The position numbers and the translations under genes are program-made. This document shows, piece after piece, positions 1,314-14,800 of a DNA stretch of 20,554 bases. The stretch covers positions 1-20,554 of the IMG/VR virus record IMGVR_UViG_3300031213_000263, one strand, 5' to 3'. Each line of letters begins with the position of its first letter. Within the stretch, counting starts at the first letter, position 1. The notes beneath the pieces are model-generated. The model saw nothing but the letters and a program-made list of their open reading frames with translations. It searched no databases and was not told where the DNA came from. This DNA comes from a virus.

Positions 1314-2558
1314 ATGGAAAAAACAAATAGCAAAAAGATTAAGGTCCTTGTAGTACCTTCTGACCGAACTGGTGTAAGTTATTATAGGTCAACTAAACCT
1401 CACGTACATCTAGAACAAATGTACCCAGAAGAATTTCACGTAGATATAGATTACGAACCTCAATTAAATAACGATGAGTGGTTGAAGCAATACGATATTA
1501 TTCATTATCATAGAACGTTAGGTGATTATGGACATATGGAAGATTTAGTTAAACATTTAAACTCACTAGGAATAGTTACTATAATGGATTTAGATGACTA
1601 TTGGTTACCTGAGATGAGTCATCCAGCTTATCACATAATAAAAAATAATGATTTGGATGTAAAGATACGTAATAATATTAAAACAGCAGAAAACGTAACT
1701 ACAACTACATCCATTTTTGCTGACGAAATTAAAAAGGTTAATAAAAGCGTTAAAGTTTTACCTAACGCTATTGACCCTAATGAAAAACAATTCATTCCTA
1801 ACCCTGAACCTTCTGATAAAATAAGGATAGGATGGTTAGGTGGTAGTAGCCACTTAAATGATTTACAACTATTGAACAAATTAGTAACTAAATTGAAGTC
1901 TGATGGTTTATTAGATAAAATACAATTTGTTATTTGTGGGTTTGACATTAGAGGTAAAGTTAATATGATTAATAAAGAAACTGGCGAAACCACACAAAGA
2001 GATGTCAAACCAGAGGAAACAGTATGGGTTCAATATGAAAAAATATTCACTGATAACTACAGTACAATAAGTCCTGGATACAAAGACCATTTAAATAGAT
2101 TTGTCACACAGGAATTCGAAGGCGTAGAAAATGAACCATACAGAAGAGTATGGACCAAACCAATTAGTAGTTATGCAACCAACTACAATTTATTTGATAT
2201 ATCTTTAGCACCTTTAGTTGATAATACTTTCAATAAAGTTAAAAGTCAATTAAAGGTCATTGAAAGCGGGTTCCATAAAAAAGCATTGATTGCTCAAAAC
2301 TTTGGACCTTATACTTTAGATGTCGATAACGCATACGTTAGAGGCGGTGAGATTGACACAAGTAAAAATGGTTTTCTAGTTGATTCACATAAGAATCATA
2401 AATCTTGGTATCAGTACCTTAAAAGACTCATTCAAGAGCCAGAAATGATAAAAACTTTCGGTGACAATCTTTATAATACGGTAAAGGACAAATATAGTTT
2501 AGATGTTGTAACAAAAGAAAGGGCTGATTACTATAAGAAATTATTAAAGGAAAAATAA
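1314..2558 (+). CDS. GT-B fold glycosyltransferase (GT4-like)
   Basis: This 414-residue protein probably transfers a sugar from a nucleotide-sugar donor in the cytoplasm. The N-terminal Rossmann half opens with a strand KIKVLVVPSD (8-17) and a loop containing SYYRSTKP. A DIIHYH segment (61-66) and MDLDDYW (91-97) follow. The second half opens with RIGWLGGSSH (171-180) and has the donor-site helix region SQLKVIESGF (311-320), with K314 and E317 in the positions used by GT4 enzymes. A region at about 215-280 looks like an insertion. No membrane helix or signal peptide is seen. The start ATG at 1314 follows an A/T-rich leader. It is the first gene of the sugar block and is separated from upstream genes by a terminator. 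Acceptor and donor cannot be told from sequence. Confidence 0.82.
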   Translation: MEKTNSKKIKVLVVPSDRTGVSYYRSTKPHVHLEQMYPEEFHVDIDYEPQLNNDEWLKQYDIIHYHRTLGDYGHMEDLVKHLNSLGIVTIMDLDDYWLPEMSHPAYHIIKNNDLDVKIRNNIKTAENVTTTTSIFADEIKKVNKSVKVLPNAIDPNEKQFIPNPEPSDKIRIGWLGGSSHLNDLQLLNKLVTKLKSDGLLDKIQFVICGFDIRGKVNMINKETGETTQRDVKPEETVWVQYEKIFTDNYSTISPGYKDHLNRFVTQEFEGVENEPYRRVWTKPISSYATNYNLFDISLAPLVDNTFNKVKSQLKVIESGFHKKALIAQNFGPYTLDVDNAYVRGGEIDTSKNGFLVDSHKNHKSWYQYLKRLIQEPEMIKTFGDNLYNTVKDKYSLDVVTKERADYYKKLLKEK

Positions 2559-2559
2559 A

Positions 2560-2700
2560 ATGGAAATATTAAAGAAAATAGGTCGCTATTTTAAAAACTT
2601 GTTTTACACCATTATAGGTAAAGAAGTAAAACCTGAAGATAAGGAAGTTGAAGAAGAAAAATACACGGACTTTTTACTGAAAATAACGTCAAACGAATAA
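2560..2700 (+). CDS. Small hypothetical protein, 46 residues
   Basis: An ATG one base after the glycosyltransferase stop opens a 46-codon frame ending in TAA at 2698-2700. The product begins MEILKKIGRYFKNLFYTIIG, a short amphipathic, partly hydrophobic helix, followed by an acidic Lys/Glu-rich tail. It could associate with membranes through that helix, but one such helix is weak evidence. The tight spacing to the upstream gene and the phage-like composition favour a real gene. No family was recognised. A still shorter frame (ATG at 2707, 15 codons) follows and is not called. Confidence 0.5.
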   Translation: MEILKKIGRYFKNLFYTIIGKEVKPEDKEVEEEKYTDFLLKITSNE

Positions 2701-2756
2701 TTTATCATGGATAGAAAAATGCGTGAATTAAATGATATATCTGAAGAACAATAACC

Positions 2757-2787
2757 TTGTCTAAAAGTGTTTAAAATAGTATATTTG
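2757..2787 (+). promoter_or_regulatory. Bacteroidota-type promoter upstream of the HD-like gene
   Basis: TTG at 2757-2759 and TATATTTG at 2780-2787 are separated by 20 bp. This fits the known Bacteroidota primary sigma pattern (TTG at about -33, TAnnTTTG at about -7). The start codon at 2804 lies 17 bp downstream, after an A/T-only leader, so the 5' untranslated region would be very short. Confidence 0.6.
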
Positions 2788-2803
2788 ATTAAAATAAATT
2801 AAT

Positions 2804-3385
2804 ATGAGTTTAAAAAAGAGTAAAATTGTCTCTAATACTAAGAAGTATGTAGAGACAGCAAAGGAATATGGGTTCTTGACACCTGAGTTAGAAGATTTCT
2901 TAGGTAGCGACTTTATTGAAGCACCAGCTTCAACTTTAGTTAAGTTACATAACGCATTTGAAGGAGGTTTAATTGACCATACTTTAAGAGTTATGAAGCA
3001 TGGTTATTTAATTAATAAAAATAACCTTATTGATGAATTGAAAATTGATGAGGTTTCTTTATTTAAGATAATCTTGCTTCATTCAATAGGTAAAGCTAAA
3101 TTATACATTCCAGAAACTTCAGATTGGCATAGAGAAAACCAAGGTAAGATGTATAAATTTAACGAAGACCTTATATCAATGAGAGTTGGTGAACGTTCAG
3201 GTTATTACGCTCTTAGTAATGGTGTCGAATTAACTGAAGAAGAATACGCTTCTATCATTAACTTTGATAAATCAGGTGATACACAATCTGAATGGTATAA
3301 CACTACCGCTGGGGATGTTTTAAAAATGGCAGTTAAATTAGCAATCATGGAAGAAAAGAAGATTGCAGAAAGAAATCAAGATTAA
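2804..3385 (+). CDS. HD-domain-like protein with degenerate metal site
   Basis: The 193-residue product resembles phage HD-superfamily phosphohydrolases. It has GGLIDHTLRVMKHG (54-67), giving conserved H59 and H66, then an LLHSIGK segment (91-97) where the family has LHDIGK, and a helix ending KLAIMEEKK (178-186) where the family has an A-D-x-L-A pattern. Here the HD doublet reads H93-S94, and the final Asp position is V177, so two expected metal ligands are missing. HD enzymes normally hydrolyse phosphate esters of nucleotides; this copy may be inactive, bind a ligand only, or use another metal arrangement. A good promoter precedes it, and a MazG-like gene starts 2 bp after its stop, suggesting a shared nucleotide-related role. 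The family assignment is fairly firm; catalytic status is inferred. Confidence 0.72.
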   Translation: MSLKKSKIVSNTKKYVETAKEYGFLTPELEDFLGSDFIEAPASTLVKLHNAFEGGLIDHTLRVMKHGYLINKNNLIDELKIDEVSLFKIILLHSIGKAKLYIPETSDWHRENQGKMYKFNEDLISMRVGERSGYYALSNGVELTEEEYASIINFDKSGDTQSEWYNTTAGDVLKMAVKLAIMEEKKIAERNQD

Positions 3386-3386
3386 T

Positions 3387-3737
3387 ATGGAGTTTAAAGA
3401 ATTAAATGAAAAGGTAATTGAATGGGCTGATAATAAGGGAATCCTTAACATCGCCACACCTAAAAGTCAACTTGGTAAAACGAAAGAAGAGGTTGAGGAA
3501 TTGACTGAAGCTTTGGAAGCGCAAGATGAAGGTTTGTTTGAGTTTGTAAACTCAAAAGGTGAAACTAAGAACACCGATTTTGAAATAGAAGATAGTATTG
3601 GTGATATTCTAGTAACATTGATAATTCAAGCTAAGATGCAAAATATTGATATTGTAAAGGCCTTAGAATTAGCATATGATACAATCTCAAAAAGAACTGG
3701 TAAAATGGTTAATGGGGTTTTCGTTAAAAATAAATAA
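3387..3737 (+). CDS. mazG: MazG-like nucleotide pyrophosphohydrolase
   Basis: This 116-residue all-alpha protein matches the MazG-type NTP pyrophosphohydrolase pattern. A first helix (MEFKELNEKVIEWADNKG) is followed by KTKEEVEELTEAL with the E-E-x-x-E metal-binding signature, then an EDSIGDILVTL helix carrying the second acidic pair. Such enzymes cleave NTPs or dNTPs to NMP and pyrophosphate; phage copies are thought to tune nucleotide pools or alarmone levels. The frame extends back to a TTG at 3363 inside the upstream gene, but the ATG at 3387, two bases after that gene's stop, gives the usual family N-terminus and is preferred. It is cotranscribed with the HD-like gene and followed 11 bp later by the fusion glycosyltransferase. 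Confidence 0.82.
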   Translation: MEFKELNEKVIEWADNKGILNIATPKSQLGKTKEEVEELTEALEAQDEGLFEFVNSKGETKNTDFEIEDSIGDILVTLIIQAKMQNIDIVKALELAYDTISKRTGKMVNGVFVKNK

Positions 3738-3748
3738 ATAATTAGTAA

Positions 3749-5395
3749 GTGATAAGTATAGTATTCTGTACCAGAGAACATAACCAAAAGCATATAGACC
3801 ACTTAAAGAAAATGGCTGGTCACCCTAAAGTTGAAGTAATTGAATATATAAACAATGGAGAATCCTTAACTAAAGCTTATAATAAGTTGCTAGATAAGGC
3901 TAAGTTCGACATTGTTGTTTTTTGCCACGATGATATTGAAGTTAAAACGAAGCAAATGGCTAAAAAGATGAAGAGACATTACGATAAGACTGATTATGGT
4001 ATATTGGGTGTTGCTGGTACAAAATACTTACATTCAAATGGTAAGTGGTGGACGGACCCAAAGTCCATGTACGGGCGTGTATGGCATTCACACAAAGGTA
4101 AGCAATGGGAATCTAAATATAGTGAGGATTTAAATAAAGGGGTTGAAGATGTTGTTACAGTAGACGGTGTTTTCTTTTCTGTGATGAAATCTAGACTTGA
4201 AAAAATATTTAACGAAGACGTAGAAGGGTTCCATTTCTACGACATTGATTTTTGTTTTAGAAACTTTTTAGATGGTGTTAAAGTAGGAGTGCATACAGAC
4301 ATTTCAATCACTCACATGTCCATAGGTGAAACAAATAATGAATGGGAAGAGAATAGAAAGAATTTTGCTGAGGAATATAAAGATAAATTACCTATCAAAA
4401 TAGACAGAGAATTTAGCGACAATCATAGCTTTAATATAATGATTAGTTGCATTAACTTCAACAGTTACACGGGTTCCGAATTGTATAATTACGAACTGGC
4501 CAAAGCACTAGTTAAAAAAGGACACAACGTTACTATATGTTCTAACATAGGTGGTAAAATAGCACAACAAGCCTTAACACACGGAATTAAATTAGTTGAC
4601 ATTAGCGAACCCTTAGGTTTCAAAAGAGGTGATGGTAAATGGCAAATACAAGGTAATGACGGTAAATTAACACCTTCCGAAGCAAACAAGCTATATAGAG
4701 TAGGTCAAGTTAATATTGACATAATTCATTCAAGTCACACACCAGTAACAAAATTAATGGCTAAGATATACCCTGAGATACCAATAGTGTCTTCAATTCA
4801 TTCTGAAGTTATTAGTTTAGAACACCCAGTTTTATCTGATAACGTTAAGAAATATATAGCTATCAGGCCTGAAATAAAGGAGTATATCACTAAAGAGCAC
4901 GATATACCTGAGGAAAAAATAGAAATCATTTATAACCCTATCGATGAAACACGTTTTAAACCTGTAGAGGTTGATTCTAAGACCGACAAGAAGATTACTC
5001 TGTTTGTAGGGACGATTGACTATCTTAGAAAAGATATGCTCTTAGACCTCATTAAAAGAACTAAAGAAGAAAACGGTGAGTTGTGGGTAATAGGTAAAGA
5101 AAACGGTATTAATTTTGACGACATAGCTAACGGACAAGACCACGTACTATATCTTGGTATTCAAAGTAATGTAGAAAAATATATGAATATGGCCGACGAA
5201 ACCGCTGGAATACTTTTAGGTAGAACCACCATTGAAGGATGGATGTGTGGTAAAGGTGGTTGGATTTACGACGTTGATAACAAAGGTAAAATAAAAGGTA
5301 AAAGCTTTCACGAAGTTCCAGAATATATTGATAAATTTAAAAGTGGTGAAGTGGCTGATAAAATACTAGAAGAATATAAAGAAGTTTTAAAATAA
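3749..5395 (+). CDS. Two-domain glycosyltransferase: GT-A (StrF-like) fused to GT-B (GT4-like)
   Basis: The 548-residue product contains two different glycosyltransferase folds. Residues 1 to about 220 form a GT-A domain of the StrF-like GT2 type: ISIVFCTRE at the start, an FCHDDIEV metal and nucleotide-sugar site (H60-D61-D62), VTVDGVFF (137-143) and FHFYDIDFCFR (161-171). Residues from about 228 start a second Rossmann domain (FNIMISCINFNSYTGSELYN) and continue through an INPIDETRF-like hinge (IIYNPIDETRF) and a short GT4 donor domain (ITLFVGTIDYLRKD onward). Such fusions can add two successive sugars. The start codon is GTG at 3749; no nearby in-frame ATG precedes the first strand. The stop overlaps the next ATG by one base (TAATG). 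No membrane segment is visible. Confidence 0.82.
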   Translation: MISIVFCTREHNQKHIDHLKKMAGHPKVEVIEYINNGESLTKAYNKLLDKAKFDIVVFCHDDIEVKTKQMAKKMKRHYDKTDYGILGVAGTKYLHSNGKWWTDPKSMYGRVWHSHKGKQWESKYSEDLNKGVEDVVTVDGVFFSVMKSRLEKIFNEDVEGFHFYDIDFCFRNFLDGVKVGVHTDISITHMSIGETNNEWEENRKNFAEEYKDKLPIKIDREFSDNHSFNIMISCINFNSYTGSELYNYELAKALVKKGHNVTICSNIGGKIAQQALTHGIKLVDISEPLGFKRGDGKWQIQGNDGKLTPSEANKLYRVGQVNIDIIHSSHTPVTKLMAKIYPEIPIVSSIHSEVISLEHPVLSDNVKKYIAIRPEIKEYITKEHDIPEEKIEIIYNPIDETRFKPVEVDSKTDKKITLFVGTIDYLRKDMLLDLIKRTKEENGELWVIGKENGINFDDIANGQDHVLYLGIQSNVEKYMNMADETAGILLGRTTIEGWMCGKGGWIYDVDNKGKIKGKSFHEVPEYIDKFKSGEVADKILEEYKEVLK

Positions 5396-6108
5396 TGACA
5401 ATAAGAGTTTTAATATTAAACTTAAATAACTTAAATTTTATAAGGGACTGTGTTTCAGATTTGAGAGCGCAGGCCCATTTTAATTTTAAAGTAACCATAA
5501 TCGACCAAGATTCAACTGAAGAAGGTAATAGAGAATTTTTAGAGTCTATAAATGATAGTAGGTTTGAAATTATTTTTAACGAAAACAATGAACCAGTTAA
5601 TAAAATGTGGAACTGGTTTGCCAACACCTACGATGAAGATTTGTTATGTTTTTTAAACAACGATGTAAGAATACCAAAAAACTTTATTTTAGATACTATT
5701 GAGACCTTCCACAAAGAGGAAGAAGTTGGTATTGCTGTTCACGCAACAAATCACCCTCATTACAGCCATGTTAAATCTAAACTAATGTATGCTATTGTTC
5801 CCAAATTTAAATACATGCAAGGTTGGGATTACACAATAAGAAAAGAATGTTTCACGCAAATACCAGAAGAATTAAAAATATATTGCGGTGACGACTTTTT
5901 ATTTCACCAAACATATTTAAAAGGCTTTGATTTAGCATACATAGTCAGCTCTCCGATAATACACTATGAGGGTCAATCTAAAAAGTTCATGAGAACTACT
6001 GGTGTGGAGGATATAAAAACCTATAAAGATTTAGGTTTTAAACATTATTTAAAAATAAATTATGAATTTAGTAACATAAAACCAACTTACAAAGAATTTA
6101 AAAATTAA
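5395..6108 (+). CDS. GT2-family glycosyltransferase (GT-A fold)
   Basis: This 237-residue protein shows the GT-A pattern: strand IRVLILNLNN (3-12), VTIIDQDSTEEG (33-44) as the first nucleotide-binding Asp loop, and LLCFLNNDVRIP (83-94), in which the NND takes the place of the DxD metal site. An acceptor-side GWDYTIRKECF segment and a GDDFLFHQ motif follow, in the position of the general base region. It has no transmembrane helices, so it is probably a soluble cytoplasmic enzyme. It overlaps the upstream fusion glycosyltransferase by one base and ends 1 bp before the methyltransferase gene, so translation is probably coupled. The sugar substrate is unknown. Confidence 0.82.
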   Translation: MTIRVLILNLNNLNFIRDCVSDLRAQAHFNFKVTIIDQDSTEEGNREFLESINDSRFEIIFNENNEPVNKMWNWFANTYDEDLLCFLNNDVRIPKNFILDTIETFHKEEEVGIAVHATNHPHYSHVKSKLMYAIVPKFKYMQGWDYTIRKECFTQIPEELKIYCGDDFLFHQTYLKGFDLAYIVSSPIIHYEGQSKKFMRTTGVEDIKTYKDLGFKHYLKINYEFSNIKPTYKEFKN

Positions 6109-6109
6109 A

Positions 6110-6700
6110 ATGGAAAAAATTGAAGAATTATATAAAGGTTATAAATCAAAACCAATAGTCTATAAATCAAAAGACATTTATGAACACTTACCTGTTATAC
6201 GCAAGTACGCTAGTGAAGTTGACCATGTAACGGAAATGGGTGTTAGATGGGGTGCTTCTACTATTGCAATAGGAGTCGCTAACCCAAAGAAAATGATATC
6301 ATATGACATTACTAAAACATATGACATGTTGAAAGCTGTAAACTTATTAGAAGCATCTGAGATAGATTTCAGTTTTATTCTAGGTGATACACTTAACATT
6401 GAGATTGAAGAAACTCAAATGTTATTTATTGACACGCTACACACCTACAATCAATTAAGTAAAGAATTGGAGTTGCACGAGGGTAAGGTAACCAACTACA
6501 TCATCCTACATGACACCGAAAGCTTTGGTAGGAAAGATGAAAGTATATACTCACATGCCTCACAAACATTGAAAGAAATGAAAAAGGGTAAAGTTGGTCT
6601 AATGACAGCGGTCGAAGATTTTTTAGAAGTAAATAAAAGTTGGGTTATTGAAAAACATTATAAAAATAATAACGGTTTAACCGTATTAGCCAGAATTTAA
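6110..6700 (+). CDS. Class I SAM-dependent methyltransferase (Methyltransf_24-like)
   Basis: The 196-residue protein carries the SAM-binding loop VTEMGVRWGAST (40-51), an acidic strand end MISYDI (62-67), an FILGDT segment (89-94), MLFIDTLHTYNQL (104-116) and YIILHDTESFG (130-140). The paired DTLHTY and ILHDT motifs are typical of the Methyltransf_24 and cephalosporin-hydroxylase-like group, often found in sugar-modification clusters and phages. It would transfer a methyl group to a small molecule or glycan hydroxyl; the acceptor is unknown. The gene sits between a GT2 enzyme and an FkbM-like methyltransferase, which supports glycan tailoring. The start is the ATG at 6110, just after the preceding TAA. 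Confidence 0.75.
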   Translation: MEKIEELYKGYKSKPIVYKSKDIYEHLPVIRKYASEVDHVTEMGVRWGASTIAIGVANPKKMISYDITKTYDMLKAVNLLEASEIDFSFILGDTLNIEIEETQMLFIDTLHTYNQLSKELELHEGKVTNYIILHDTESFGRKDESIYSHASQTLKEMKKGKVGLMTAVEDFLEVNKSWVIEKHYKNNNGLTVLARI

Positions 6701-6711
6701 TAAAAATTGAT

Positions 6712-7329
6712 ATGAAAACTAGGGTCAATTTTTTTGATTTAGGCATGTTTGATGGAGCTGAATCCTTAATGTTTTTAGAAGATATTAAAGGTTTAAACGT
6801 TGACCCATACATTTATGGGTTTGAGGCGTATCAACCGTTTTACGAAAATATATGTGAGTTGTTTAGTGATAACAATAACGTTAACATAAATAATTTAGCA
6901 ATTTCTAATAGTGATTCTTACGTTAAACTTTTTCTAGAAAAAAGCGGTCAGGGAAATTCAATATACGAAAGTAAAAATAATGTTGACGCTAAAAATTTTA
7001 TTGAAGTTAAAAGTGTTTCATTCGCTGACTGGATGATTAAAAATGTAACAAATTATAAGAACAATTTCAATATACTAAGGTTTAATATAGAAGGTGCCGA
7101 ATTACCACTTATGGAAGACATTATCAATAAAAAGATTCATAAAGATTTTAAGATTTTTTTAGGGTCACACGTTGGTGTGGATATAAAAAAAGTGGGTGAA
7201 ATAAAGGATAAATTTAATTATTATGTCAACCTATTAAAAAGTAATAACATAAATGTAGAGTTATATTGTAAAGACTTAACAACTAGTAACGTCAACTTAC
7301 ATAATTTAATCAAAGAAAAACTAAAATGA
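6712..7329 (+). CDS. FkbM-family methyltransferase
   Basis: This 205-residue protein resembles FkbM O-methyltransferases. Motif I is FFDLGMFDGAES (7-18), followed by an acidic strand YIYGFEAYQPF (33-43), NVNINNLAISNSD (56-68) and the family's characteristic LRFNIEGAELPLM (122-134). FkbM enzymes methylate hydroxyls on natural products and surface sugars. The usual motif G-x-N-x-G reads DLGMFDG here, a known type of variation in phage copies. The 3' end overlaps the next gene by 4 bp (ATGA), so translation is probably coupled. In this cluster it probably caps a sugar with an O-methyl group; the acceptor is not predictable. Confidence 0.75.
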   Translation: MKTRVNFFDLGMFDGAESLMFLEDIKGLNVDPYIYGFEAYQPFYENICELFSDNNNVNINNLAISNSDSYVKLFLEKSGQGNSIYESKNNVDAKNFIEVKSVSFADWMIKNVTNYKNNFNILRFNIEGAELPLMEDIINKKIHKDFKIFLGSHVGVDIKKVGEIKDKFNYYVNLLKSNNINVELYCKDLTTSNVNLHNLIKEKLK

Positions 7330-7976
7330 TTGTAATATATAGCGCTATTTACGGAAATAAAAATAAAATACTTGAGGTACCTGAAATTGATGGTGTTAGT
7401 AACATAATGTACACAGATTATGACATTACCCCTAAGTATTATAAAGGTTGGGAAATAAGAAAATCTAAAGGTGAAGAATTCAATAGTAGTGTATTGAATG
7501 CCAAACAATTTAAACTTTTACCACATAAATTCTTACCTGAGTATGATACAACAATTTGGGTTGATGGTAGTATTAAAACTAAAAATATAGTCGAATTCAT
7601 TGAATTGTATAATAAAAATGAAATGGTTGTTTTTGACCATAATCACACTACATTTGATAAAAGAGATTGCATATATGACGAAGCTAAAGTGGTCATGTCT
7701 CAAGGTTTAGATAAGAAATCAACAATCAATAAACAAATAGGTGAGTATAAATCAGAAGGATTTCCGAAAAATAATGGTTTAATATGTGGCGGGGTTTTAT
7801 TAAGAAAGAATACAGACTTAATTAATAAAATTATGGATGAATGGTGGAGTGAAATTATAAAAGGAAGTTTTAGAGACCAATTATCATTTAATTATGTTGC
7901 TTGGAAAAATGATTTTAAACCACACTATATAAAAGATGACATTAGGTCAAACAAATATTTTAAAATTAATGAGTAA
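7326..7976 (+). CDS. DUF616-like glycosyltransferase
   Basis: The 216-residue product resembles the DUF616 (TOD1/MUCI70) glycosyltransferase-like family. It starts with VIYSAIYGNKN (3-13), has a short SNIMYTDYD segment (25-33), the signature YDTTIWVDGSIK (73-84) in which D80 would be a metal or sugar-nucleotide ligand, and FDHNHTTFDKRDCIYDEA (103-120) with the family's His-x-x-Arg/Glu region. A GLICGGVLLRKN segment and a DQLSFNYVAWK helix complete the GT-A-like fold. It overlaps the upstream FkbM gene by 4 bp and the downstream pyruvyl transferase by 8 bp. Donor and acceptor are unknown. The family match rests on motif order and is fairly firm. Confidence 0.72.
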   Translation: MIVIYSAIYGNKNKILEVPEIDGVSNIMYTDYDITPKYYKGWEIRKSKGEEFNSSVLNAKQFKLLPHKFLPEYDTTIWVDGSIKTKNIVEFIELYNKNEMVVFDHNHTTFDKRDCIYDEAKVVMSQGLDKKSTINKQIGEYKSEGFPKNNGLICGGVLLRKNTDLINKIMDEWWSEIIKGSFRDQLSFNYVAWKNDFKPHYIKDDIRSNKYFKINE

Positions 7977-9018
7977 AAGAACTGCAATTTTTAGTCTAGC
8001 ACCCCATGATAGACATAACTATGGTGATATATTATATGGTAATTTATTAAACAAACTTTATGCTGATAAAGACGTTGACTTTTACTATGTTGGGTTGGTG
8101 GACATTGATATGACAGAGTTAGGAGGTGGGGTTGTTATACCAGTCAGTAAGATGATTGAAATAAGTAAAATTTACACTGATGTTACAATATACGTTGGAG
8201 GTGGTGAGTTTTTAAACTCTGCTTATGGTGGCTTAAAGTCTTTTATAGATAACAACCTTAAAAAATCAATAGACAGAACTTTAAGGTATCCTTTTATGGT
8301 GGATAAATCACTGTTTGATTCGGATATAAATCTTAGTGTTAAGTTTATATCATTTGGTGGTGTAATGCCAAATGCACCACAAGTAGCTAAATTATTTAAT
8401 GAAGGTGATATTGTATACGCTAGAGATTCACTGACATCTTTCTTAGTTAAAGAAAAAGGTGTTAAGAATGTAAAAACATTTCCAGACTTAGGTCAATTCA
8501 CTAGAGAAATACTAAATTTAGAAAGCTTAACAAATGATTTGTTTGATGACTACGTTGTTATTCAAGTGGGTAAAGCTAAATTCGAATCTAAGGAGGTGTT
8601 GAAGAATGAAATAATAAAGTTAAGTGAAGTAGAAAACGTAATACTATTACCAGTGGCTTATTGTAACGAACATGACGACGACAAAATATTGGCTGAGTTG
8701 GAAAAAGAAATCAATCTACCCAACGTCAAATTATTTAAGGATAAAAACATAATCAATATAACTAAGGTAATTGCTAATAGTAATATGTGCATTGGTACTA
8801 GCCTACACTTAATGATGGTAGCTAACAGTTACGGGGTTAAATATTTACCACTTAACAGTGTCAAGAAAATTGATAGGTATCAAAACACTTGGCATGAAAC
8901 TAAGGTTAAATGTAATGAGAACAACCTTTTCGAGAAGTATAAAAAATCAATTAATAAAGAGTACAAGTTTTTCGAAAAATATAATGTTTCAGATTTAAAA
9001 AAAATAATAGGTATATGA
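7969..9018 (+). CDS. Polysaccharide pyruvyl transferase (CsaB/WcaK type)
   Basis: This 349-residue protein has the polysaccharide pyruvyl transferase pattern: RHNYGDILYGNLL (15-27), YVGGGEF (75-81), a SFGGVMP loop (128-134), VYARDSLT (149-156), FPDLGQ (171-176) and, in the second domain, SNMCIGTSLHLMMVAN (271-286) with the conserved H280. The enzymes use phosphoenolpyruvate to form a pyruvyl ketal on a sugar, adding a negative charge. The frame opens at 7936, but the ATG at 7969 gives the family's N-terminus (MSKRTAIFSL) and only an 8-bp overlap with the previous gene. It overlaps the next gene by 4 bp. A complete pyruvyl transferase in a phage glycan block is uncommon and suggests a negatively charged modification. 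Confidence 0.82.
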   Translation: MSKRTAIFSLAPHDRHNYGDILYGNLLNKLYADKDVDFYYVGLVDIDMTELGGGVVIPVSKMIEISKIYTDVTIYVGGGEFLNSAYGGLKSFIDNNLKKSIDRTLRYPFMVDKSLFDSDINLSVKFISFGGVMPNAPQVAKLFNEGDIVYARDSLTSFLVKEKGVKNVKTFPDLGQFTREILNLESLTNDLFDDYVVIQVGKAKFESKEVLKNEIIKLSEVENVILLPVAYCNEHDDDKILAELEKEINLPNVKLFKDKNIINITKVIANSNMCIGTSLHLMMVANSYGVKYLPLNSVKKIDRYQNTWHETKVKCNENNLFEKYKKSINKEYKFFEKYNVSDLKKIIGI

Positions 9019-10057: not shown

Positions 10058-10804
10058 ATGGCAAAGAGACAACCAAAAAAGACAGAAAAAACAGAAAGAG
10101 ACCAAAAGGCTACTAGAAGTAAGCCGACAAGTAAGATACTAACTAAAAGAGTTACCTTAAAGTGTAAGAATGTTAAACAAAAAGAATATGCTAATTTAAT
10201 TAAAGAAAAAGAAATCATATTCTGCTCAGGTCCATCTGGTGTAGGTAAAAGTTATGTGGCAATGGCCGTAGCTTTGAAACTACTTCAAGATGGAGATAAT
10301 TCATTCAATAAGATATTAATTGTTAAACCAGCTGTAGAAGCTGAAGAAAACCTAGGTTTCTTACCAGGTGATTTAAAAGAAAAGATGGCACCTCATATGG
10401 CATCATCAATTGATATCGTAGACAAAATAATAGGTAAACCAAATAGACTAAAATTAGAAGAGTCTGAAGAGATTATGATTGAACCGCTGGGCTTCCTTAG
10501 GGGTAAATCAATTGATAATTCCATATTGGTTATGGAAGAAGCTCAAAATATGTCACCTTCTCAAATGAAAACTCTATTGACAAGGATAGGGTATGGGTCT
10601 AAATACATCATCTCAGGTGATATGGACCAATCAGATAGATACAAAGACAGTAAACAAAGTGGATTATATGACGCTATCAATAGACATAAGTTTATTGAAG
10701 AGTTAGGGTTTTTTGAATTTAATGAAAACGACATTGTAAGAAATCCATTGATAACCAAAATGCTTATCAACTATAAAGTAGAAAATAAAGTAATGGATAA
10801 ATAA
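10058..10804 (+). CDS. phoH: PhoH-like P-loop ATPase
   Basis: This 248-residue protein is a phage PhoH ATPase. A very basic N-terminal tail (1-40, Lys/Arg/Thr-rich) precedes the core. Walker A is GPSGVGKS (58-65), followed by the PhoH segment LIVKPAVEAEENLGFLPGDL (87-106). Walker B is ILVMEEAQN (156-164) and the sensor-like SGDMDQ is at 186-191. PhoH proteins bind and hydrolyse ATP and have been linked to RNA handling and phosphate starvation; the phage role is unsettled. The start ATG sits directly after the terminator T tract, leaving no room for a Shine-Dalgarno site. It is convergent with the endonuclease gene on the opposite strand, 65 bp away, and no hairpin was seen between them. Confidence 0.92.
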   Translation: MAKRQPKKTEKTERDQKATRSKPTSKILTKRVTLKCKNVKQKEYANLIKEKEIIFCSGPSGVGKSYVAMAVALKLLQDGDNSFNKILIVKPAVEAEENLGFLPGDLKEKMAPHMASSIDIVDKIIGKPNRLKLEESEEIMIEPLGFLRGKSIDNSILVMEEAQNMSPSQMKTLLTRIGYGSKYIISGDMDQSDRYKDSKQSGLYDAINRHKFIEELGFFEFNENDIVRNPLITKMLINYKVENKVMDK

Positions 10805-10851
10805 TAAAGACATTCTGTTCACTTTAGACAAAAAATACGTACAATAATAAT

Positions 10852-10890
10852 ATGAAAATAGGAATAACATTATTCACGTTTAAGATGTGA
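10852..10890 (+). pseudogene. Cut-off 5' end of the HAD-like gene, left of the endonuclease insertion
   Basis: ATG at 10852 opens a 12-codon frame, MKIGITLFTFKM, then TGA. Its IGITL codons are identical in sequence to those at the start of the gene at 11978 (MAQIGITLNEV). It is preceded by an A/T-rich leader. The simplest reading is that this is the original start of that gene, separated from its body by the endonuclease insertion. Joining it to base 12002 restores MKIGITLNEVIRDY in frame. Confidence 0.7.
10858..10872 (+). repeat. Left 15-bp direct repeat flanking the endonuclease insertion
   Basis: ATAGGAATAACATTA occurs here and again, identically and in the same orientation, at 11987-12001. 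The two copies are 1,129 bp apart, start to start. In both copies the bases fall in the same reading frame and encode IGITL. The last three bases also supply the endonuclease stop codon on the opposite strand. Confidence 0.85.
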
Positions 10891-11868
10891 TATGAGATAA
10901 TCTTTATTAGTCCTTTTTAAATGTTTGTAAATCCTCAATTCATTTTTTCTAAAATCCGTTAAATTATTATATTTATTTATAATTTTTTTTAATTCATTTA
11001 TTGTTAATTTAATATTAGACTTTTTATCAGGCATATGTTTAGCGGCTTCATCAACAATTTTAAGTTTCAACAACATTCTATATTCTTTCTCATGTTTATT
11101 TTTAAATTCATTAAACGAATTATATTTTTTACATAATTTAAATAATTTTTGTTTATTATATATTTTATTATATACATTATTTATTTTTATTTTGTTAACA
11201 TCATCTTCTCTTAAAGTTAAGTCAGTGGTTTTATTTATTAGTTTAAGATTATCATTAATTTGTTTCTTAATATCTTTAATATAATTTCTACTTTTTTCGT
11301 AAATATGAATCAATGTGATATTTTTATTCTTGGTTAAAGATATTTTTAATTCATCATTATTTTCTAAAGTATGCCAATATTTACCCTGATACTCAAAAGC
11401 CAATTTATATTCTTTGTAATATAAATCTAGTTCATATGGTTTAATTATTTTTCGATTGTTATATGATGCTTTTAAATTTAAAAGTTGATTCATTAAGTCT
11501 TCTAAAATCATCTGTGGGATACTATATTTAAATGGGGTCATATGAGACGTTAATTCATCTAAATAACCTTTTAAACGAGCAGATTGATAAGCTGGCTCAT
11601 CAAACTCTTTTAATTCTCTTATTGAAGTATATTTATTAAAAATTTTTTTTAATTCATTATAATTTAAATCTCTATAACCTAGATTTATTTTAGTTTTGTG
11701 ACCTTTTTTATTTCTCCATAATAAAAATTTTTCACTTTTTTTTAAACCCAATCTATACCCTTTATTGTCAATTGAAGATTTAGACTTATTCAAAATTGTT
11801 GCTATTTCTAAATTAGTTTTATTTGAATAAATTTCTTTTAATTTCTTTTCTTGCATTGTAGTCCACAT
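10870..11868 (-). CDS. Vsr/EDxHD-like homing endonuclease with DNA-binding repeats
   Basis: This 332-residue protein is the only clear gene on the - strand. Residues 1-44 form a SANT/GcrA-like helix-turn-helix (W2, NLEIATILNKSKSSI, YRLGLKKS). A PD-(D/E)XK nuclease core of the Vsr-like homing type follows at about 116-195: E123, KPYELDLY (143-150), KLAFEYQGKYWH (155-166) and ITLIHIYEKSR (184-194). Three divergent 33-residue repeats (about 78-110, 248-280 and 298-330), each built around a KY-N/T-S/N start and an SHM/KHM/SHL end, are probable DNA-recognition modules. The DNA is noticeably more A/T-rich than its neighbours. Its stop codon lies inside the left 15-bp repeat. It would cut an allele lacking the insertion, near the IGITL codons of the neighbouring gene. 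An intron-encoded origin is unlikely because it is antisense to the interrupted gene. Confidence 0.8.
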   Translation of the reverse strand: MWTTMQEKKLKEIYSNKTNLEIATILNKSKSSIDNKGYRLGLKKSEKFLLWRNKKGHKTKINLGYRDLNYNELKKIFNKYTSIRELKEFDEPAYQSARLKGYLDELTSHMTPFKYSIPQMILEDLMNQLLNLKASYNNRKIIKPYELDLYYKEYKLAFEYQGKYWHTLENNDELKISLTKNKNITLIHIYEKSRNYIKDIKKQINDNLKLINKTTDLTLREDDVNKIKINNVYNKIYNKQKLFKLCKKYNSFNEFKNKHEKEYRMLLKLKIVDEAAKHMPDKKSNIKLTINELKKIINKYNNLTDFRKNELRIYKHLKRTNKDYLISHLKRE

Positions 11869-11906
11869 AATAATCTCTCATTTATAATAATAAATTATAA
11901 CCAATT

Positions 11907-11921
11907 TTCACTAAAAGTGAA
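11907..11921. other. Small hairpin between the endonuclease and HAD-like genes
   Basis: TTCAC and GTGAA form a 5-bp stem around a TAAAA loop. It lies in the divergent gap between the endonuclease start (11868) and the next gene (11978). It has no T tract long enough to be a good terminator. A role in endonuclease control is possible but not shown. Confidence 0.35.
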
Positions 11922-11949
11922 TAATAAATAAAAAGATATACCTTTTTTA

Positions 11950-11970
11950 TTTTTAGGTGGTATATTAAAA
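11950..11970 (+). promoter_or_regulatory. Candidate promoter within the inserted leader
   Basis: A T-rich tract ends in TTTTAGGTGG, followed by TATATTAAAA at 11961-11970 and an A-rich leader up to the ATG at 11978. The same TAG plus TAT-rich arrangement precedes the genes at 1314, 2804, 15724 and 19127. Since the insertion displaced the original leader of this gene, this element may supply its present expression. It is a motif-based inference. Confidence 0.4.
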
Positions 11971-11977
11971 ATAAAAA

Positions 11978-12559
11978 ATGGCTCAGATAGGAATAACATT
12001 AAACGAAGTAATTAGAGACTATGTAGGTCAACTAAAGTACGTTTATAAGAAATATTACGGTGAAGATTTAGAAGATGTTAAAGTAGAAGACTTTGACTTA
12101 GCCAGTTTTTTCAAGTTTGACTCACAGGAAGCTTTTCATAAGTTTCTATACAGCGAGAGTCCAATGGAAATATTCGCACACGCTGACCAATCATATAAAA
12201 ATGTCGGTCCAATTCTAAACAGTTTTATTAACGACATAAACGACTACGAAGAACACGAGGTTATATTATTAAGTAGAGACGTACATAAAAGTAGACCCGC
12301 AACACTATTCTTTTTATCAAAACTAGGGTTTACTGGTAATAGCATTAAATTCGCACTTGATACTAAGAAATTATGGGATGATGTAGATGTTTTAGTTACA
12401 GCAAACCCAGTAGCTTTAGATAGTAAACCTGAAGGTAAAATTTCAGTTAAAATCGAAGCAACTTACAATGAAAATACTGAGTCTGATTATACATTAGAAT
12501 CAATATTAGATTTTATAAATAATGAAGAGCAATTTAAAAAAATAATGAATAATGATTAA
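11978..12559 (+). CDS. HAD/5'-nucleotidase-like protein lacking the catalytic aspartates
   Basis: The 193-residue product aligns by pattern with NT5C-type deoxynucleotidases of the HAD superfamily. The position of motif I (normally I-G-I-D-x-D-x-V) reads IGITLNEVIRD (4-14), so both catalytic Asp are replaced by T7 and N9. Motif II fits EVILLSR (94-100), a PATLFFLSKLG helix (107-117) follows, and motif IV fits LWDDVDVLVTANP (132-144), with GKISVKI (153-159) near the end. It is therefore probably a non-catalytic HAD-like protein, perhaps binding or regulatory. Its first codons were rebuilt by the endonuclease insertion: the present N-terminus is MAQIGITL, the displaced one MKIGITL. It overlaps the next gene by 8 bp. 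The fold assignment is moderate. Confidence 0.6.
   Translation: MAQIGITLNEVIRDYVGQLKYVYKKYYGEDLEDVKVEDFDLASFFKFDSQEAFHKFLYSESPMEIFAHADQSYKNVGPILNSFINDINDYEEHEVILLSRDVHKSRPATLFFLSKLGFTGNSIKFALDTKKLWDDVDVLVTANPVALDSKPEGKISVKIEATYNENTESDYTLESILDFINNEEQFKKIMNND
11987..12001 (+). repeat. Right 15-bp direct repeat flanking the endonuclease insertion
   Basis: This is identical to 10858-10872. It lies within codons 4-8 of the HAD-like gene and marks the right edge of the insertion. Confidence 0.85.
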
Positions 12560-12902
12560 AATATTTGGAGATTTATATTACATCGACTTTGAAAAGTTAG
12601 ATGCCTTTGTGGCTGATGGTCAAAAAGATAATGTATTTAAAACAGTGGATAAAGAATATAACTATGATAATGAATTGGTAAAGACGAAAATAATTGAAGC
12701 TGCTGAACCTACCACTAAAGAAGTTAACGTCGTGAGATATGAAATAATTAGAAATTTCATTGACGATATCTCAATGGCTGGTGGTACAAGTGACGAACAT
12801 GATGAAATGTTGGGGTCTAATAATCTAATTAAAACCGATGTAAAATTTAAATTAGCGTATAATACTCTAATTTTTTATAAGATATTAAAAAAAATTGATT
12901 AA
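12552..12902 (+). CDS. Small phage protein of unknown function
   Basis: This 116-residue protein starts MIKIFGDLYYIDFEKLDAFV and contains mixed beta strands and helices, including RYEIIRNFIDDI (62-73) and a hydrophobic C-terminal helix FKLAYNTLIFYKILKKID (99-116). It has an acidic middle with SDEHDEML. No catalytic motif, signal peptide or clear membrane segment is visible. The start overlaps the HAD-like gene by 8 bp and its stop is 4 bp before the next ATG, so the three are probably co-translated. The coding call is firm because of its length, spacing and amino-acid composition; no family was recognised. Confidence 0.65.
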   Translation: MIKIFGDLYYIDFEKLDAFVADGQKDNVFKTVDKEYNYDNELVKTKIIEAAEPTTKEVNVVRYEIIRNFIDDISMAGGTSDEHDEMLGSNNLIKTDVKFKLAYNTLIFYKILKKID

Positions 12903-12906
12903 AAAA

Positions 12907-14022
12907 ATGGAAAACGAAAAAAAACAAGTACAAGTAAAAGAATTTATAAGTAAAATTGATAATAAAGATTTTGGTTTATATTTCTTTACTTTGGATACAA
13001 AAGGTAACCCAACTGCTGGTATTGCTAATATATACGAGCACGTTAAAGTCTTAAATGATTTAGGGTATAAAGCTCATATATTACACGAAAAAGATGACTA
13101 TCATGGCGTTGAAGAATGGTTAGGTGAAGAGTACGCTAAACTACCACACGTTTCAATTGAACAACAAAATTTAAAACTAGTTGCAATAGATTACATTATT
13201 GTACCTGAGATTTTTGCTAACGTAATGGAGCAAGTAAAAGACTTCCCATGTAAGAAAATAGTATTTTCACAGTCCTATTCTTACATCTTAGAATTTTTAC
13301 CAATTGGTAATAGGTGGGATTTAAACTTTGGCTTTACTGATGTAATCACAACATCTGAAAGACAGTCAGAGTACATCAAAGACCTATTTCCAAGTATCGA
13401 CACTCATATCATACCGCCGTCAATACCTGAGTACTTTAAAACGACTGATAAGATTAAAAAACCGATTGTCTCTATTGTAACTAGAGACCAGAAAGCTGCA
13501 CTAAGATTGGTTAAGTCGTTCTACTTACAACATCCAATGTATAAATGGATTACGTTTAGAGAACTTAGAGGTTTACCTAGAAAAACGTTTGCTGAGCAAC
13601 TAGGTGAGTCTTGTCTAGCTATATGGGTTGATGATGAATCCAGTTTTGGAACATTCCCTATTGAAGCTATGGAGTGTGACACACCTGTTATAGGTAAGAT
13701 ACCTGCTATGATTCCTGAATGGATGGAAGACGATAGTTCGGATGAACAACAAATTAGTTTGAAAGATAATGGTGTTTGGACTAATAACGAATTATCTATA
13801 CCTAATTTAGTGTCAGAGTTCATGAGAGTATGGTTAGAAGATAATGTACCTAGTACCTTAATGGAAGGTGTTAAAAAATCTAAAGGTCAATACACTGAAG
13901 ATAAGCAAGTTGAAAATATCAAACGTGTATATGGTAATCTAATTGCTAATAGAAGAAGTGAGTTTGAAGCACTTATTGATATAACTAAAGAAAAAGAAAA
14001 AGAAAACAAAGATGAAAAATAA
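12907..14022 (+). CDS. GT-B fold glycosyltransferase-like protein (GT4-like)
   Basis: The 371-residue protein has a GT-B layout. An N-terminal Rossmann half contains FGLYFFTLDTKGNPTAGIAN (22-41), with a GGxxx-like acceptor loop, then DLGYKAHILHEKDDY (51-65) and IDYIIVPE (94-101). The second half has IVSIVTRDQKAALRLV (187-202), where a phosphate-binding Arg/Lys pair is expected, and SSFGTFPIEAMECDTPVIG (245-263), the donor-site helix with E253. The first part of the donor domain is short. The frame extends to a TTG at 12895, but the ATG at 12907 after an A-only leader is preferred. The Lys/Glu-rich tail overlaps the next glycosyltransferase by 11 bp. The acceptor is unknown. Confidence 0.75.
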   Translation: MENEKKQVQVKEFISKIDNKDFGLYFFTLDTKGNPTAGIANIYEHVKVLNDLGYKAHILHEKDDYHGVEEWLGEEYAKLPHVSIEQQNLKLVAIDYIIVPEIFANVMEQVKDFPCKKIVFSQSYSYILEFLPIGNRWDLNFGFTDVITTSERQSEYIKDLFPSIDTHIIPPSIPEYFKTTDKIKKPIVSIVTRDQKAALRLVKSFYLQHPMYKWITFRELRGLPRKTFAEQLGESCLAIWVDDESSFGTFPIEAMECDTPVIGKIPAMIPEWMEDDSSDEQQISLKDNGVWTNNELSIPNLVSEFMRVWLEDNVPSTLMEGVKKSKGQYTEDKQVENIKRVYGNLIANRRSEFEALIDITKEKEKENKDEK

Positions 14023-14800
14023 AAATGATATCACAGTAATCACGCCTCTTTATAATGTGGACGAGACTTTACTTAATAATGCTATCAAGTCGATAGCAAT
14101 GCAAGAAACAAAACCAGATACGGTAATGTTTGTTGTTGGTACCGATAAAGACCATGGTGTTTTATCTGATTTAATGAAAAATTACGATTTGAATTTTGAT
14201 GTTATTAAACATGACAAATCAACTGATTTTCAAGCTCAAATGAATCTAGGTGTTGAAAATTGCAAAAGTAAATGGTTTATCTTTTTAGAGCAAGACGATG
14301 AGTTAAGTGGAAAATGGGTAAGTAACGTTGTGAAGTATAGAGAAGTTTATACTGACACTCAAATATTTCTACCAATAATATTAGACGTGGACCCTCAAAG
14401 CAATTTTATTGGGTTCACTAACGAAGCTGTATGGGCATCTCAATTCTCAGATGAAATGGGTGTGTTGGATAATGCTGCACTATTGAGGTATCAAAATTTT
14501 AATATGGATGGAATGGCCATGTTAAAAGAAGCATATCAAGAATTCGGTGGACTTAAAGAAAGCATGAAATTGAGTTTTATAAGTGAATTCCTATTAAGGT
14601 TTACATTCAATTCATGTAAAGTGATGATTATCCCTAAATTAGGGTATAAACATCTAAATGACAGAGAAGGTAGCTTATTTAACTCTTATAAAAAAGAGTT
14701 AACGCCAGATGAATCAAGATGGTGGTTATCTTTGGCTAAGAAAGAATATTTCCACGTCAATGACAGAAATATCCTTTATGAAAAAACAGAAAAATCTTAA
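14012..14800 (+). CDS. GT2-family glycosyltransferase (GT-A fold)
   Basis: The 262-residue product begins ITVITPLYNVDETLLNNAIKSI (7-28), the classic GT2 first strand and helix. It continues with FVVGTDKD (40-47), FQAQMNLGVENCKSKWFIFLEQDDEL (73-98), in which D95-D96 form the metal-binding DxD-like site, and a FNMDGMAMLKEAYQEFGGL acceptor segment. No membrane helices are seen. It overlaps the GT-B gene upstream by 11 bp and the sigma-factor gene downstream by one base (TAATG), so the two glycosyltransferases and the sigma factor are probably in one transcript. Its donor sugar is not predictable. Confidence 0.85.
   Translation: MKNKNDITVITPLYNVDETLLNNAIKSIAMQETKPDTVMFVVGTDKDHGVLSDLMKNYDLNFDVIKHDKSTDFQAQMNLGVENCKSKWFIFLEQDDELSGKWVSNVVKYREVYTDTQIFLPIILDVDPQSNFIGFTNEAVWASQFSDEMGVLDNAALLRYQNFNMDGMAMLKEAYQEFGGLKESMKLSFISEFLLRFTFNSCKVMIIPKLGYKHLNDREGSLFNSYKKELTPDESRWWLSLAKKEYFHVNDRNILYEKTEKS

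Follow-up and report, generated by a model that had tools for sequence, protein, structure and literature searches.

A homing endonuclease gene within the first codons of a phage gene, with a displaced native start and a probable replacement

The window analysed here, a stretch of 20,554 nucleotides of viral DNA (IMG/VR record IMGVR_UViG_3300031213_000263), carries a homing endonuclease gene that, judged from its flanks, is inserted inside the first codons of a host gene, directly after codon 7 (IGITL|NEV). We think it probable (roughly 0.6) that a free-standing endonuclease gene of the EDxHD type, running antisense and accompanied by a divergent control region, displaced the native start of the host gene and brought a replacement for it. 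The features of the region are collected in Table 1.

Table 1. Features at and around the insertion (window coordinates).
Feature	Position	Strand	Remarks
PhoH-like ATPase gene, conserved upstream neighbour	10058-10804	+	Pfam PhoH, 1e-60
Native leader of the host gene, stranded	10805-10851	+	TTCACTTT at 10818-10825; match to native leaders
Native 5′ end (MKIGITL), displaced; reaches a stop after 12 codons	10852-10890	+	Left repeat, 10858-10872
Homing endonuclease gene, antisense, 332 aa	10870-11868	-	phrog_3339 homing endonuclease, 2e-12
Divergent leader between endonuclease and rebuilt gene	11869-11977		11903-11976 common to L034 (67/74)
TTCACTTT motif facing the endonuclease gene	11914-11921	-	
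Host gene with rebuilt start, HAD/deoxyribonucleotidase-like	11978-12559	+	ATGGCTCAG at 11978-11986; right repeat, 11987-12001

The earlier note had described 15-bp direct repeats on either side of the endonuclease gene, and both copies of ATAGGAATAACATTA are indeed exact (15/15 bp), each reading IGITL. The left copy follows ATGAAA, and the frame from the ATG at 10852 reads MKIGITLFTFKM and then a stop, whereas the right copy is preceded by ATGGCTCAG and lies in an ORF of 193 aa opening with MAQIGITLNEV; the contrast drawn in that note between a dead-end frame and an intact gene is thus borne out. The two copies are 1,129 bp apart from start to start, and joining the flanks across the insert yields MKIGITLNEVIRDY, so that removal of the intervening DNA restores a gene start as had been proposed. 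Between the repeats lie the antisense ORF (11868 to 10870) and a leader of 109 bp, and the endonuclease ORF ends in a stop codon complementary to 10870-10872, the three bases that close the left repeat. In the whole window, five pairs of identical 15-mers lie within 1.5 kb of each other, against three altogether in 20 dinucleotide shuffles (mean 0.15; 0.3 in a second run of 10). Because the five also count other pairs, as well as words that overlap within longer repeats, chance statistics alone are not decisive, and we judge the repeat genuine because the homology of the left leader to the native leaders of endonuclease-free relatives decides the matter.

The host protein is 99-100% identical in eleven near-identical contigs, which constitute the window's clade. 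All eleven contain endonuclease sequence and nine contain both repeats, the other two (L006 and L011) ending inside the endonuclease gene. The endonuclease ORF is 332 aa long in each of the nine, and six of these, aligned with the window, show 0 to 8 differences over 1011 positions of the endonuclease region. Outside the clade the picture is different. A profile-guided scan, from which the best 80 of 214 loci were taken, returned the 11 clade members and 69 others, and none of these 69 gave an endonuclease match at E 0.001 among the matches listed. Nor did any of them show a second repeat copy (up to 2 substitutions) over 2 kb of upstream DNA, or over as much of that as the contig contains. 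PhoH is found upstream in 59 of the 69, 51-362 bp before the gene as counted from the end of the PhoH match, and was not seen in 10; none of the 69 has the endonuclease at this site, the PhoH-gene junction being directly visible in those 59. Among the loci listed, the endonuclease is therefore confined to one near-identical clade. The gene starts with MK in 40 of the 69, with MR in 10, with MAQ in one and otherwise in 18. A degenerate DNA pattern for IGITLNEVI found 24 stretches; 11 belong to the window's clade, and the remaining 13 read MKIGITLNEV (7), MRIGITLNEV (5) or MAQIGITLNEV (1). The empty allele predicted in the earlier note, MKIGITLNEV without an endonuclease, accordingly exists. MA- and MS-type starts also occur among the loci listed in distant relatives without any endonuclease, so an altered start alone is no mark of the cassette. 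L093, L095, L097, L100, L104, L112, L125, L126 and L141 have MA- or MS- before the same strand and carry no endonuclease. The phage record collection gave no match for the 3.5-kb region, the host gene, the downstream glycosyltransferase or the endonuclease, and a pattern search of bacterial and archaeal genomes found no relative of the host gene or of the endonuclease.

The two leaders are unrelated. The 47-bp leader on the left aligns with the native leader of L076 (on the same contig as L016) at a score of 41, against a shuffled mean of 16.2, and with that of L080 at 38, against 16.1 (0 of 500 shuffles reaching the score in either case); the comparison with L084 gave p 0.008, and the remaining six of the nine native leaders tested gave no value below 0.05. 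The right leader matches none of the same nine (lowest p 0.2), and a search for a decayed native leader hidden in it, in the window or in L034, was not significant against any of them. Because the relatives pair PhoH with MK- or MR- gene starts, sequence comparison identifies the left copy as the native 5′ end, displaced together with its own native leader, and the right copy as the rebuilt MAQ- start. The earlier note had allowed that its reading would fail if the left frame were unrelated; the leader matches mark that frame as the native start. Native leaders often carry TTYACTTT some 31-43 bp upstream of the gene, and the motif lies on the plus strand within 130 bp in 27 of 49 distinct upstream stretches. 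It occurs seven times in the window, twice in intergenic DNA: once in the native leader (10818, +) and once directed toward the endonuclease gene (11921, -). The endonuclease I-TevI is known to have an operator that resembles its target site; such an operator, sought in the leader and insert, gave nothing significant (tail fractions 0.41-0.81).

The right leader has one counterpart outside the clade: its pattern occurs in only 12 stretches, the 11 clade contigs and L034. The latter is an 11-kb contig with PhoH and an MAQ start, lacking both the endonuclease and the left copy. Its 74-bp leader is identical to the window's at 67 of 74 positions, ungapped (score 113; shuffle maximum 51 in 1000), and no significant homology extends beyond these 74 bp toward the endonuclease gene (p 0.75). 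L034 shares its IMG sample number with the endonuclease-bearing contig L007; at only 91% identity, its leader is no assembly duplicate of the one in L007. The gene body of L034 is unlike the window's and closest to that of L074, where the leader is native and the gene begins MRIGITLDEV. Where window and relative encode the same amino acid in the host gene, third codon positions agree at 74/127 with L034 and 76/130 with L074. Two other intergenic gaps align, with indels, at 52/65 and 45/60 between the window and L034, and another yields only 9 bases. The leader is therefore better conserved than other non-coding DNA.

Trees of 11 phages, one from five genes on the right of the host gene and one from two genes on its left, place this shared leader against the phylogeny. 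Both sides give (window,(L034,L074)), with L034 and L074 joined at 100/99 and the three together forming one clade at 100/98 and 100/99; in the left-side alignment the row of L016 is only 40% filled. Constraining the window and L034 together was rejected (p-AU 0.0041 for the right genes, 0.0003 for the left). Single-gene support is 97/93 for the host gene and 99/96 for the glycosyltransferase; PhoH by itself did not resolve the tree, which concatenation with the preceding gene did. Within the carried coding part, MAQ in place of MK/MR is the only difference, and a gene tree cannot be drawn from so few residues. Because the leader of L074 is native and the flanking genes reject a window-L034 clade, a transfer of leader and MAQ start between phages is most likely, and we favour it over an old and strongly constrained leader that L074 lost. 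As for L034, it most likely either lost the nuclease or received the right-hand part only. Of the scheme put forward in the earlier note, the interruption of a coding 5′ end by a cassette is sustained by the empty alleles; its corollary that leader and start arrived with the endonuclease is qualified by L034, which has this start without the enzyme, so that the two are separable and need not have arrived together. That note had named an MAQ start with both repeats and no endonuclease as evidence against it, and L034, with its MAQ start and the same leader, comes near; lacking the left repeat, it does not amount to a refutation.

L034 is also the chief ground for an alternative that we consider unlikely but the best of those remaining, namely that an MAQ allele with its own control region (the state of L034) arose or circulated alone and that the endonuclease landed upstream later. 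The native remnant on the left would then be the product of recombination, at the shared ATAGGAATAACATTA microhomology, with a phage of the MK type, and the endonuclease would not have brought the start. The repeated appearance of extra-residue starts in distant relatives agrees with this. Against it, L034 keeps, as TTTACTTT on its minus strand, the counterpart of the endonuclease-facing motif, with no endonuclease beyond, and minus-strand motifs are rare, being found in 2 of the 49 upstream stretches, L034's contig included, where the plus-strand form occurs in 27; this is suggestive only, since the motif could act either way and no significant homology continues past the 74 bp toward the endonuclease gene. 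A single old insertion in the common ancestor of the window, L034 and L074, followed by deletion of the endonuclease in L034 and reversion by recombination in L074, would need just one gain in what is one clade on both sides, but seems improbable to us: the stranded left copy is still 15/15 and its leader still native-like, which is unexpected given third positions that agree at only 74 of 127, although its decay might have been slowed by conversion between the copies, and by the overlap of the repeat with the stop codon of the endonuclease gene. Two exact direct repeats flanking an insert might also suggest a transposon-like insertion that duplicated a 15-bp target, or a gene start duplicated in tandem and later split by the endonuclease gene, but this is very improbable, as the insert contains no transposase or integrase, its only ORF of length has no transposase-like match, the leaders are unrelated, the codons before the repeat differ, and neither kind of duplication gives both sides. 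A group I intron or intein was rejected as well: 10700-12200 contains no intron family (one chance match, E 0.58, is below threshold), and the antisense endonuclease and the new start on the right also speak against it.

The product of the host gene looks like a HAD/5′-nucleotidase-like protein. Its predicted structure (mean pLDDT 82.7) finds its best solved match in 3bwv, a deoxyribonucleotidase-like HAD protein (E 4.4e-4, TM 0.61 by query length), and the Pfam NT5C match is weak (E 0.046, below threshold). The repeat encodes the conserved first strand of this HAD-like protein. The usual DxD is missing at that strand (ITLNEV), one Asp being kept in the relatives L114 (GVDLNEV), L131 (GIDINEV) and L074 (ITLDEV); the sequences suggest a HAD-like family drifting away from catalysis. 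Genes that by eye resemble those for glycosyltransferases and sugar enzymes crowd the phage structural-gene region of the window (1314-9018 and 12895-14800).

The endonuclease is grouped by profile with the EDxHD (I-Bth0305I-like) nucleases. A profile of the catalytic stretches of the window and of three relatives, L143-L145, matches 3r3p (I-Bth0305I) at E 8.7e-07, a match to which the relatives contribute most; the window enzyme alone reaches E 0.087. The ELD and E-x2-G motifs and an H are invariant over the four sequences, the positions having been compared by sequence alone. The structure model of the endonuclease has a mean pLDDT of 38.8 and is unusable. The phrog_3339 family is present in 4 of 20 kin phage records searched, one being the window's clade and the others having it at other places: the protein search matched the clade, G003 and G020, while G018 was found by the family profile alone. 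The catalytic-motif pattern was confined to the window's clade (9 stretches).

Comparison of the alleles shows PhoH beside an uninterrupted MK/MR-IGITL gene in the relatives. In the window the native leader and first seven codons are cut off on the left; on the right an unrelated leader and the new start ATGGCTCAG continue in frame into those IGITL codons, and this leader and start recur in L034 against the flanking-gene tree. We infer that the endonuclease recognises a long site reaching from the native leader into the first codons; for an EDxHD enzyme a span of nearly 60 bp is possible, according to an excerpt of PMC3943268. It would make a double-strand break in the native allele near IGITL|NEV, to be repaired from an allele carrying the endonuclease, its own two-way leader and a gene start. 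The native half-site would be displaced leftward, and, were the site of about 60 bp to cover the native leader and first codons, the rebuilt gene could keep IGITL and yet no longer be a full target. With a replacement start contained in the insert, the host gene retains a single frame. On loss of the endonuclease, the right half of the cassette, leader and start, might persist at the locus or be transferred. The leader presumably has promoter activity, and leader and endonuclease may travel together.

A broader proposal, to which we give slightly under even odds, is that the insert is a mobile gene-start exchanger, in which an endonuclease, a two-way control region and a replacement start are spread among related phages by homing and leave a new promoter and protein start behind after endonuclease loss, as in L034. 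There are three allele states: occupied (the window), empty (L016 and L074) and scar (L034). If the proposal is true, homing is a route for one-step promoter change of phage genes. If the leader travels along, homing could rewire the timing or strength of expression of a conserved phage gene, leaving a scar.

Among known systems, I-Bth0305I (3r3p) is alike in its catalytic domain by profile; its structure-database entry calls it a mobile intron protein, whereas the window locus matches no intron family. The endonucleases of L143, L144 and L145 are of the same profile family. Those of L143 (1495-3105) and L144 (1489-2922) likewise lie antisense just upstream of their host gene, here a gp19-like one, and make up another divergent pair of endonuclease and structural gene, but in them the host gene begins undisturbed and shares no repeat family with the far end of the insert. 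In L145 (16-1167 and 1489-3201) an endonuclease gene of phrog_3339 and another ORF, which by eye we take to resemble TnpB, lie beside a gp23-like capsid gene; unlike the window's, this endonuclease gene is downstream of, and on the same strand as, its neighbour.

Free-standing endonucleases are thought to be intergenic, to lie inside genes with splicing, or to split the gene that they enter. In their insertion in or beside conserved phage genes, the T4-type seg and mob genes and Aeh1 mobE in nrdA resemble the present case, and an excerpted review (PMC2988022) relates that T4 endonuclease genes embed promoters of downstream genes, which is said to favour retention, and that flanks are co-converted. 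The insertions in nrdA and gene 60 described there split these genes, mobE and mobA leaving hosts in two working polypeptides, whereas the window keeps one frame with its start replaced. In that excerpt segD is the only antisense T4 case; the window endonuclease is antisense too, with a divergent leader. No phage endonuclease replacing the 5′ end of a gene was found in the titles and abstract openings of the open-licence literature searched. The nearest parallel is in fungal mitochondria, where mobile ORFs carry gene ends in Allomyces macrogynus atp6 and in Glomus atp6, atp9, cox2 and nad3 (PMC3630166, in excerpt). By that account, they have in common with the window a free-standing endonuclease gene in a protein gene, a substitute end carried with it, a hybrid gene kept open and a native end stranded beyond the insert. 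The fungal elements so described are mostly LAGLIDADG and replace the 3′ (carboxy-terminal) end, whereas in the phage window the enzyme is of the EDxHD type, its gene is antisense, and the replaced part is the 5′ end with control region, start codon and first residues. By analogy, then, the window resembles the fungal replacement of gene ends, but at the 5′ end and in a phage.
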